A stretch of DNA of 64,000 bases, taken from NCBI RefSeq assembly GCF_013407165.1, contig NZ_CP026994.1, forward strand, positions 434,001 through 498,000, read 5' to 3'. The translations under genes were made by a program, and so were the position numbers. Under the pieces are notes generated by a model. That model had not been told where the DNA came from and did not search any database. It saw only the letters and a list, made by a program, of their open reading frames with translations. Positions 17,928-21,680 of this stretch are shown here, one piece after another (position 1 is the first letter of the stretch; the number at the start of each line of letters is the position of its first letter). Origin of the DNA: Nitrosopumilus oxyclinae. GTDB taxonomy: Archaea > Thermoproteota > Nitrososphaeria > Nitrososphaerales > Nitrosopumilaceae.

Positions 17928-18572
17928 ATGGCAATGCCTATGGATTTTGATGGGATGAGAACAGATGATGCTTCACTGAGAACCGATAATGTTGATGACT
18001 ATAGACGAACATGTATGGACTTTATCGAGGATATCTCACATGATTATGAGGCATGGGTTGATTATTACAAATTGCCTGAAGATGAAGATAAACGACGACG
18101 TGTAGGAATTTGTGCTACAATCACTAGAACCAATGACTGGATAGCAAAAGTAGCCCAGTCCATTAAGGCAGTTGATGTTGTAATGAATGATGGAATTCAA
18201 AAAATGGCAGAAGCTACTGCAGGAAAGCCACTAGAAATTGGAGTTTTTGTAAATCACAAATCCGGTTACACTGAAACTAGTCCTGGGGTAATTGATGTGA
18301 ATGTGAAAGGTGCAGGTCGGGAAGGGAGAAAGATGAAACTTGGATTTCATTTTAAAGATGATAGATTTAGAATTGAATCTACATGTGATGCGTATTTGGA
18401 TGAGGAAAATTTACCTGATAAGGAATTTGATATTTTAGATATTCATCTTAAACTTCATGCAGAAAATGCAAAACCTCGTGATGTTATCTCATTTACTGTG
18501 ACTCTAAGTGAAGTTGAAAATGATGTTGAAATTGATAGACGTGGAGTTTCAACTATTGTTCATCTGGTATAG
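17928..18572 (+). CDS. uncharacterised cytoplasmic protein
   Basis: 214 residues, acidic, with no signal peptide. The N-terminal part is helical and rich in Asp, Arg and Tyr (DYRRTCMDFIEDIS, DYEAWVDYYKLP). The C-terminal half is predicted beta-strand-rich. Its 3' end overlaps the convergent beta-propeller gene by 20 bp. The ATG is followed four codons later by another ATG, so the exact start is uncertain by a few residues. No family is recognised. Confidence 0.6.
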   Translation: MAMPMDFDGMRTDDASLRTDNVDDYRRTCMDFIEDISHDYEAWVDYYKLPEDEDKRRRVGICATITRTNDWIAKVAQSIKAVDVVMNDGIQKMAEATAGKPLEIGVFVNHKSGYTETSPGVIDVNVKGAGREGRKMKLGFHFKDDRFRIESTCDAYLDEENLPDKEFDILDIHLKLHAENAKPRDVISFTVTLSEVENDVEIDRRGVSTIVHLV

Positions 18573-20787
18573 CTTCACGAATAACTTCTCCGCCAATATA
18601 ATCAATAAACTTTCCAGTGTTTTCGAGTTTTATTGAATTTATTTCATCCAAGTTATTCAAAGAATTCATCTTCAAATATCCTTGAGAAGCAGTATACAAG
18701 ACTTCATCGATGTAGAAACTTCTTGCATTACTCATTCCATAATATCGTGAATCTTCTGCAGAGTGTGTTACTGTTCCTTTAAGGTTGAATCCATCTAAAG
18801 TGTTCACATCAAATACATAGAATCCACTCCAACGATTGTAATCTGGAGCAATCTTTTTTGCACTTGATAATCCGCTGAGACTTTTTGCATCTCCACTAAT
18901 AGGAATTGATAGCACTCCACTTTTTTTATCAAAGAAAAATGACTTGTGTTCGTATAGTGCTTCTGAATGAGTTGAACTATCACCGATTATGATGTCATCT
19001 GCAACTTTGGGGTTTTTCACATCTGCCACATTAAACAATGCAATTTTGATGCCTAATTGCTGAACTCTGCCATTGTCTACTTCCTTTGTATCTCGTCCGA
19101 TTCCAATAACATGTTCTTCATCATATGGATGCAAATAGTTTGAAAATCCTGGGATTTTCAATTCACCTAGAATTTTAGGCGTATCTGTTGATAAATCAAT
19201 TACAAAGAATGGGTCAATTTGTTGGAAAGTTACCAAGTATAGTCTATCACCCATGAATCTTGCAGAGAAGATGCTCTCATCTGGGGCAATCTCATCTAAT
19301 TCACCTACGATCTTTAGTTGTTCATCTAAAACATAGACTGCATTTGCACGAACTGTACCTTGATGTTGAATGTAATATTCAGTAGTTGTTGCTACTCTGA
19401 ATCTATCTCCGTTTTCATCCATGGAGAATTGATTTAGTAATCTACCGGGAACTGATCCTTTGGCTACATATTCGATTTTATCTTCATCAATTGAAATTTT
19501 ATGAATTATTGTTTTTCTAGTATCTTCTTGGATTTTAACATCGTATTCATTAAGGGCTTCTCTGATTTTTTCAAATAATTCCTCTTTGTCTTTTTTATCC
19601 ATCTGGTTGTAAGATTTTTGCATTAGTTCTGAAATTTTTATCCATTGCACTGCTGAAGTAATTGAAGAATCATTTTGTATTGCTTTGATTTGTTCTTGAG
19701 TGTTATTTGGTAATAATGGTACAACTACATCAAAGAATCTGTCCCGTGATGAATTCTCATAAAATCCAAATGGCATGTTTTGTTGATATGTTAAATAGAA
19801 ATTATCTTCAGAAACATAGAATGCTCCAGTGTACCCCATGAGAAATGATTCTGAATTTATTTTATCGCCAAAAATATCAATTGCTGTTAATGTGTTAAAG
19901 TTTGAAAATTGTTCCATATTGTCAAAGTAAAATGCATCTGGTGTCATTATTCTAATTGAATCCTCCATTATTACTGGGAGTCTTGGATATTGATAATCGA
20001 CATTACTGTTTGTAACAAAGTAAGCATAATTTCCAATCATTCGTGCATCCATGAAATGCCCGTCTATGGAATAGTCTTTTAGGATTGTTGGGTTCTCTTT
20101 GTCTGATACATCTACAATCAATGCATGTGTGACTGAACTGTATGAACGTCTTGGAATAAAGTCGTACTGTGGGATGATTTCATCATCACTTTGACCGTTG
20201 TAGAAAATTACTAGTCTATCGTCATTTAGGAACATGTTCTGAATGTATTGTGATTCAATGTCTAATGCAATTTTTAAAACTAATTTTGCAGATTCTGCTG
20301 GATATGCATCAATTATTGAAAGTGTATTTTGAGATACAATGTATACGTACTTTGAATCATTTTTGAGATAGTCTGGTTCATCTACATTTTGTACTTGAAC
20401 ATTTGTTGTTGAATATTCTGATCCTCCTGTTTTAGCTGCTCCATCAGAAGGCATTGGTGCCATTGCTGGAACTCCTGTATTTTGAGCACTATCGAAACTT
20501 GCTGATTCTGCAACTGCAAATGATCTTATCATTCGATCATCATAGAAATTACCGCCTTGTGATGATGATGCCTCGAGAATACCTTTTAGCTCATCTTGAG
20601 ATGATATTTTTTTAACATTGTTAGTTCCTTCAAAGAATTCTGAAACTGTTTTTTCAATATAGACTATTTCAGTTTGAGGTGTTTGTGTGATTTGCGGCTG
20701 ATTATCACTTCCTACTGAAAACATTATTCCGGCAGTAACTATTACCGAAATGGCGATTACAATTGGTATTGTTATTTTTTGATTCAT
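18553..20787 (-). CDS. membrane-anchored secreted beta-propeller protein
   Basis: 744 residues. An N-terminal hydrophobic segment (about 7-27) acts as signal anchor. A Ser/Gly/Met-rich linker leads to a long beta-propeller of the archaeal/bacterial beta-propeller-domain family (PF09826 type), recognised by repeats such as DEPDYLKNDSKYVYIV, RLVIFYNGQ and KLYLV-type strands. The start has a Shine-Dalgarno GAGG about 8 nt upstream, so the transcript has a leader. It is divergent from a membrane HTH regulator across 140 bp containing a 28-nt palindrome. Its role is unknown; extracytoplasmic sensing or binding is plausible. Confidence 0.78.
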   Translation of the reverse strand: MNQKITIPIVIAISVIVTAGIMFSVGSDNQPQITQTPQTEIVYIEKTVSEFFEGTNNVKKISSQDELKGILEASSSQGGNFYDDRMIRSFAVAESASFDSAQNTGVPAMAPMPSDGAAKTGGSEYSTTNVQVQNVDEPDYLKNDSKYVYIVSQNTLSIIDAYPAESAKLVLKIALDIESQYIQNMFLNDDRLVIFYNGQSDDEIIPQYDFIPRRSYSSVTHALIVDVSDKENPTILKDYSIDGHFMDARMIGNYAYFVTNSNVDYQYPRLPVIMEDSIRIMTPDAFYFDNMEQFSNFNTLTAIDIFGDKINSESFLMGYTGAFYVSEDNFYLTYQQNMPFGFYENSSRDRFFDVVVPLLPNNTQEQIKAIQNDSSITSAVQWIKISELMQKSYNQMDKKDKEELFEKIREALNEYDVKIQEDTRKTIIHKISIDEDKIEYVAKGSVPGRLLNQFSMDENGDRFRVATTTEYYIQHQGTVRANAVYVLDEQLKIVGELDEIAPDESIFSARFMGDRLYLVTFQQIDPFFVIDLSTDTPKILGELKIPGFSNYLHPYDEEHVIGIGRDTKEVDNGRVQQLGIKIALFNVADVKNPKVADDIIIGDSSTHSEALYEHKSFFFDKKSGVLSIPISGDAKSLSGLSSAKKIAPDYNRWSGFYVFDVNTLDGFNLKGTVTHSAEDSRYYGMSNARSFYIDEVLYTASQGYLKMNSLNNLDEINSIKLENTGKFIDYIGGEVIREAIPDEQ

Positions 20788-20864
20788 TTTTCTTTCCTCA
20801 CTTTATCCATTTTTTGAAAACAGACATTTAGTGATTACTATCATTTCATAGTTTGGGATAAAAG

Positions 20865-20892
20865 GTTTAGTGAAATTCAAATTTCACCAAAC
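20865..20892. promoter_or_regulatory. 28-nt palindromic operator candidate
   Basis: The sequence reads GTTT-a-GTGAAATT-CA-AATTTCAC-c-AAAC: perfect 8-bp inner arms and 4-bp outer arms with one mismatch. It sits between the divergent beta-propeller and HTH genes and just upstream of the TATA-like TTACATATAC at 20895-20904 for the HTH gene. Size and symmetry fit a dimeric winged-helix repressor, so autoregulation by the adjacent HTH protein is the simplest reading. Confidence 0.6.
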
Positions 20893-20927
20893 AATTTACA
20901 TATACTAGAATTAGATAATCAACTCGA

Positions 20928-21680
20928 ATGTCCACTGATAAGTTACCTGATGATGGATTAACTGAAAATATTAAAATCCTTGCAACTGATGATGAAAAAA
21001 TAAAATCATTTGGGGAGATATTCACCAATGATTCTAGTCGTGAAATCCTCCAATTATTATTCAATGACGAATTAACTGCATCTCAGATTGCACAAAAAAG
21101 TGATGTGTCTCTTCAGCTTGTAAAGTACCATCTCAATAAACTACAAGATCTTGGAGTAGTGAAAATATCTAGGATTGAAAAAAATTCAAAATCACAAGAC
21201 ATGAAAATTTACACTGCATCAAAATTCAGTATTGTCATTGTTCCACCTAAACTTTCTGAGAAAACAAAAGAAAGTAAATTACTAGTTCGCTCCTTTAGGA
21301 ATATCTACAAAGTTGCAGGACTTGGAATTGCAACTGGTTTTTCTGGATTACTTTCATTATCTCAATTTCAAAACAAAACTATTCCTGTAGATAATTTTGC
21401 AATGGATGGTGGAATTCCTGTCATTGAGGAATCTGCTAAAAATATACAATCATTACCAAGTGATGAATCTGTAGAGTCCATCTCTGCATCTTCTCCAATG
21501 ATTGCAGAATCTGAATCACAAGAAATTGCACAGCGTAGTATGGATGTTGTAAATACTGCAGTAAGTTCTGAGATGACTGTAAGTTCTGATTTCTTTTTAC
21601 CCCTTGTTGTAATTACGATAATCCTAGGTGGACTGACAGCATTCTATTTGTGGAAATTTAGAAAATCTAGTTTAACGTAA
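20928..21680 (+). CDS. membrane-anchored ArsR-type HTH regulator
   Basis: 250 residues. A winged helix-turn-helix (about residues 25-95) contains EILQLLFNDELTASQIAQ and the recognition helix LQLVKYHLNKLQDLGVVK. A hydrophobic patch follows (about 128-146), then a Ser/Glu-rich region, a C-terminal transmembrane helix (about 222-240) and a short basic end. A cytoplasmic DNA-binding domain with membrane anchorage suggests a one-component sensor of an envelope signal. A TATA-like box 26 bp upstream makes it leaderless, with the palindrome at 20865-20892 just before it. Its likely target is the divergent beta-propeller gene and itself. Confidence 0.8.
   Translation: MSTDKLPDDGLTENIKILATDDEKIKSFGEIFTNDSSREILQLLFNDELTASQIAQKSDVSLQLVKYHLNKLQDLGVVKISRIEKNSKSQDMKIYTASKFSIVIVPPKLSEKTKESKLLVRSFRNIYKVAGLGIATGFSGLLSLSQFQNKTIPVDNFAMDGGIPVIEESAKNIQSLPSDESVESISASSPMIAESESQEIAQRSMDVVNTAVSSEMTVSSDFFLPLVVITIILGGLTAFYLWKFRKSSLT

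Follow-up and report, generated by a model that had tools for sequence, protein, structure and literature searches.

Ammonia-oxidizing archaea count among the most abundant marine cells, and to our knowledge little is known about how they regulate their cell surface. A divergent gene pair in a marine-type member of this group, Nitrosopumilus, raises the question of whether a winged-helix protein tethered to the membrane could govern, through a strong palindrome between the two genes, both its own transcription and that of an envelope beta-propeller protein. The pair lies in a 64-kb stretch of DNA, hereafter the window, which spans positions 434001-498000 of the single 1,585,110-base contig of the genome. 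A first-pass annotation had proposed such a one-component circuit; the coordinates it gave for the two open reading frames and the palindrome all proved correct, and the divergent layout of regulator and propeller gene was borne out (Table 1).

Table 1. Features of the regulator-propeller locus, in positions of the window
Feature	Coordinates	Strand	Extent	Basis or remark
Envelope beta-propeller protein (PF09826), N-terminal signal or anchor	18553..20787	-	744 aa	ORF, Pfam, hydrophobic N-terminus, fold matches
Second conserved element, ATTTAGTGATTACTAT, near the propeller start	20826..20841	.		conservation over loci
Propeller TATA-like element, TTTTATC	20857..20863	-		1 nt left of the palindrome
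Palindromic operator (predicted)	20865..20892	.	28 nt	core TGAAATT-CA-AATTTCA at 20871-20886 most conserved
Regulator TATA-like element, TTTACATAT	20895..20903	+		about 25 nt before the start codon
Membrane-anchored winged-helix regulator	20928..21680	+	250 aa	ORF, HTH_20/HTH_24/HTH_5, orthologs in 45 of 95 congeneric genomes
Winged-helix DNA-binding domain, ArsR-like	20994..21218	+	aa 23-97	AlphaFold2 pLDDT about 80-96
First, weaker membrane helix	21303..21365	+	aa 126-146	hydropathy; model helix 117-146 at low confidence
Acidic disordered loop, probably extracytoplasmic	21366..21584	+	aa 147-219	charge, low pLDDT
C-terminal membrane helix	21594..21650	+	aa 223-241	hydropathy, AlphaFold2

The palindrome, GTTTAGTGAAATT-CA-AATTTCACCAAAC, has arms of 13 nt with one mismatch. 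Its description as strong holds: it is the sole one of its geometry in the 64 kb, and dinucleotide shuffling of the 140 nt between the genes yielded an equal palindrome (arm of 13, at most one mismatch, spacer of 0-8) 11 times in 3000. As annotated, it lies beside the regulator TATA-like element, which begins 2 nt to its right; with the propeller TATA-like element on its left, the palindrome is thus sandwiched between both boxes. The distance from its centre to the middle of each box is 18-20 bp, and it overlaps both BREs. The short distance from TATA-like element to start codon indicates that the regulator transcript is probably leaderless. Across 30 orthologous loci, conservation peaks at the palindrome, at both TATA-like elements (90-100% identity for that of the propeller) and at the second conserved element, with the conservation of the palindrome arms partly reflecting the overlapping BRE elements. 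TATA-like elements occur at equal spacing in paralogs and at orphan sites. Most orthologs carry a palindrome less perfect than that of the window, position 20885 being C in only 20%; similarly, per-locus palindrome scores within the genus were not significant in several orthologs, many of them being less symmetric. The second conserved element is retained, in the form AATTTAGTGTTTACTAC, at propeller loci from which regulator and operator are gone, and could be a proximal promoter or initiator, a regulator-independent second promoter, or the site of another factor.

The regulator matched HTH_20, HTH_24 and HTH_5 above the Pfam cut-off (E 2.5e-7 to 1e-6), and Foldseek searches with its AlphaFold2 model returned Phr (2p4w) and PH1932 as best matches, followed by the ArsR-type proteins NolR, CzrA and SmtB. 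A metal sensor of the ArsR/SmtB kind was discarded, as the protein has no cysteine and scored 24.5 bits against NF033788 (HTH_metalloreg), the cut-off being 55. In the model, the winged helix and a C-terminal helix (aa 220-249) are confident, the helix at aa 117-146 is of low confidence, and the loop at aa 143-218 is disordered, with pLDDT below 50. The anchor had initially been read as one C-terminal helix. That helix was indeed found, as a strong hydrophobic segment at the C-terminus of all 40 family members compared by hydropathy, but it does not stand alone: each of these 40 proteins has a second, weaker segment (window aa 126-144), located about 75 residues before the C-terminal one. Together with this second segment, the charge pattern (+5 in the juxtamembrane stretch preceding the first segment, -10 in the loop at aa 149-222 and +3 in the tail) suggests an N-in/C-in topology. 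A lone C-terminal helix would leave the KFRKSSLT tail outside, so that a hairpin keeping both ends cytoplasmic is the simplest reading. Hydropathy, charge and model thus indicate that the anchor is probably a two-helix hairpin around an acidic disordered loop. No recognisable sensor domain was found in this predicted extracytoplasmic loop.

The divergent partner belongs to PF09826 (Beta_propel), with a match at E 3.8e-151 and 504.8 bits, above the curated cut-off of 22.4, that covers the whole domain (profile positions 1-494 of 495). Structural matches of its model were propeller-type but corresponded to generic propellers, so no function was drawn from them; a search of solved structures with the propeller sequence found nothing. 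Residues 346-423 of this protein form an inserted helical segment with a weak match to DUF2299, below cut-off.

Gene pair and palindrome are conserved as a unit: all 30 orthologous loci combine regulator, divergent propeller and conserved palindrome, and none that holds both genes was found to lack the site. A regulator ortholog occurs in 45 of the 95 genomes of the genus, with the propeller adjoining it, by coordinates, in every case, and 23 further genomes have a propeller homolog and no regulator ortholog. The opposite situation was never found. No genome carries the regulator without the propeller, and none of the 27 propeller-less genomes has a regulator, for which the chance probability is 3e-10, a figure that ignores phylogeny. 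The operator is missing from seven loci where the propeller gene is intact and the regulator absent, their best score being 2.0 or less versus 37.5 in the window, on a scale trained on the regulator family itself (the training set scores 14.9 or more); in these loci, the usual neighbour gene directly follows the propeller and both TATA elements are gone. The site therefore goes with the regulator, although both could have been removed by one deletion of the shared stretch, and several of the seven loci may descend from a single event, since the genomes are related. Three loci with a deleted or truncated regulator keep the operator, with scores of 27.5-33.7. In L070 and L071 (genomes G071 and G044), the regulator next to the propeller has been deleted but the operator still comes close to the consensus. 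A paralogous regulator of the family is present in each of these genomes and might exert cross-control. Within the host genome, the operator is unique up to three mismatches of the strict pattern (0 for the control), and weaker sites (2-3 mismatches) that could delineate a regulon occurred at chance level, 35 versus 36 for the reversed pattern. In the absence of a second site, control here should be local.

The system is wider than the first-pass annotation had noted, reaching family scale across Nitrososphaeria. The search for the palindrome in related genomes that it had recommended revealed the same operator at related regulators and its loss where the regulator is absent. Paralogous regulators, which align along their full length at 23-40% identity, are found next to other genes and have the same operator upstream. 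Indeed, a set of 114 family ORFs from Nitrososphaeria, the host among them and extending to Nitrosotalea and soil lineages, contained 76 with the operator, which usually lies some 35 nt ahead of the start. Where it is missing, the ORF is in most cases one of the remotest homologs (E weaker than about 1e-35), a fragment, or close to a contig end. In 16 non-redundant operators, the core T.AAATTnnnATTT.A is near-invariant and dyad complementarity reaches 0.767 versus 0.702 +/- 0.018 for shuffled columns, with 1 of 2000 shuffles as high. Nearly all operator-bearing regulators (72/76) are divergent from a gene for a protein with a hydrophobic signal or anchor at its N-terminus, namely the propeller, a 103-aa secreted protein, SIMPL (PF04402), a cupredoxin-SIMPL fusion, or one of several unnamed proteins. 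The fusion, at L095:4461-5882, joins a cupredoxin domain to a SIMPL domain and is the partner of one paralogous regulator. Each main partner class keeps its own version of the operator arms. When partner types are placed on the regulator tree, a minimum of three changes is required to account for the propeller, and regulators of a single clade are paired with four kinds of cargo, which indicates that partners were exchanged while the operator stayed. From these genomic patterns, the best reading is a family of one-component membrane regulators, each of which would control itself and a divergent envelope gene via one shared operator. More tentatively, and in our estimation improbably, the two-sided promoter-operator and the tethered regulator would make up a swappable cassette whose envelope partners are exchanged, with the regulator reading its own partner through the hairpin and loop.

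Of 49 exact sites across the genus, 46 are located at a regulator of the family or at what remains of one. Exact and one-mismatch sites elsewhere numbered 28, versus 14 for the reversed pattern in the same genomes, so perhaps half of these orphan sites arose by chance. Twelve of the 28 are intergenic and upstream of a gene, all with the left arm toward the gene and an abutting TATA-like element; 11 of the 12 genes encode secreted or membrane products, DUF4377-Kazal proteins among them, and the start is 28-57 nt away. Some orphan sites, e.g., L225, have a TATA-like element on the other side too and may be remnants of lost regulators. At L213, L214, L216 and L218, a single-sided operator precedes the promoter of DUF4377-Kazal secreted proteins, with no adjoining regulator gene.

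Together, these comparisons support the assignment of the palindrome as the operator of the regulator, and we put at roughly three in four the probability that the regulator acts through it on both the propeller gene and its own. Two explanations would dispense with a regulator site altogether. Back-to-back core promoters, each with a BRE and a TATA box, might by themselves generate fortuitous symmetry, and the outer arms (AAAC on each side) do match the expected BRE positions; yet the invariant core T.AAATTnnnATTT.A sits inside those positions, and the motif is unique in a genome with many promoters, tracks the regulator family in its exact form, and is missing from regulator-less propeller loci, which makes this origin very unlikely. 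Even less credible is an RNA element, i.e., a hairpin or terminator in one transcript, as the inverted repeat (arms of 13 nt around a 2-nt centre) might suggest: two nucleotides leave too little room for a hairpin loop, the palindrome is not followed by a T-run, the repeat lies upstream of both predicted start sites and hence outside both predicted transcripts, and at family members it keeps the position of an upstream DNA site.

The circuit first proposed thus stands, by comparison, in linking one anchored regulator to one palindrome within the promoters of the propeller and of its own gene, and probably falls short in its single-helix anchor. We envisage that the regulator, held in the cytoplasmic membrane by its C-terminal helical hairpin, would act as a one-component transcription regulator, probably binding as a dimer to the palindrome between the two back-to-back core promoters and controlling both genes together. 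The hairpin and loop would either read the signal themselves or receive it, perhaps from the envelope protein encoded opposite; the strict pairing of the two genes makes this last suggestion a reasonable guess. Archaeal activators usually bind just upstream of BRE/TATA, whereas repressor sites usually cover the core promoter or lie downstream of it (PMC4158304, PMC5512572). The fixed position of the operator just upstream of each TATA box, also at one-sided orphan promoters, slightly favours activation over repression, although the BRE overlap would suit repression as well. In its explicit form, repression would entail a bound dimer that masks the two BREs and keeps both promoters silent until it is released by an envelope signal. 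The 28-bp site does overlap the BRE side of both TATA boxes, these boxes are largely intact in the three loci with a decayed regulator, and the best structural matches of the DNA-binding domain are to ArsR-type proteins and to the Pyrococcus heat-shock regulator Phr. ArsR-type proteins and Phr are mostly repressors. Against such a mechanism, the family-wide fixed spacing upstream of TATA, single-orientation orphans included, is the activator position described in reviews, and the distal TATA box is also lost in the seven regulator-less loci. We therefore regard this repressor model as a serious contender that falls somewhat short of even odds, and retain control of both genes by the tethered regulator, with a slight preference for activation.

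The closest known systems include ArnR and ArnR1, one-component regulators that in Sulfolobus acidocaldarius are bound to the membrane and activate archaellum and pili genes (PMC6396743); with them the locus shares an N-terminal HTH, a membrane anchor, inverted-repeat sites upstream of BRE/TATA and a link to surface structures. ArnR has a putative HAMP domain and its boxes, TCGAC-N5-GTCGA, lie at -43 to -84 (PMC6396743); the operator here, TTTAGTGAAATT-CA-AATTTCACCAAAC in the form compared, does not follow that pattern, abuts the TATA box and has a single divergent partner gene, and the regulator has the HTH and membrane segments but no Pfam match to HAMP, ArnR having been compared by description only. 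By analogy, the regulator may work like ArnR/ToxR-type transmembrane regulators. It combines a DNA-binding domain and at least one transmembrane segment in one protein, the hallmark of the TTRs (ToxR, CadC and many others), which have been surveyed by architecture in a study whose passages on the subject do not include this regulator family, operator or envelope-gene pairing (PMC10269533). Similarly, VtrA/VtrC and ToxR/ToxS, as outlined in part of one report, couple a membrane-anchored winged-helix regulator to a partner acting outside the membrane that forms a receptor with it, whereas the candidate partner here is a large, divergently encoded envelope protein (PMC9214523). ArsR-type regulators and Phr of Pyrococcus furiosus share the winged-helix fold but are soluble, without the membrane hairpin predicted here. 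No earlier description of this regulator family or operator was found in the open-licence literature searched. Regulator family, DNA site and likely targets can thus be named together from sequence, and one gel shift plus one promoter assay would cover the whole family. The operator also places several uncharacterised envelope families, namely PF09826, SIMPL, the 103-aa protein and DUF4377-Kazal, in a shared regulatory context.

In four genomes, the regulator ortholog (L078, L079, L080 and L171; L156 and L159 duplicate the records of L080 and L078, respectively) shows single-base indels shortly downstream of the winged-helix region, in or close to a run of A. A poly-A frameshift switch is unsupported as one mechanism, given that the indel positions differ. 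These changes could be either MAG errors or recurrent truncation; the resulting protein would be a soluble DNA-binding domain that lacks the membrane part.
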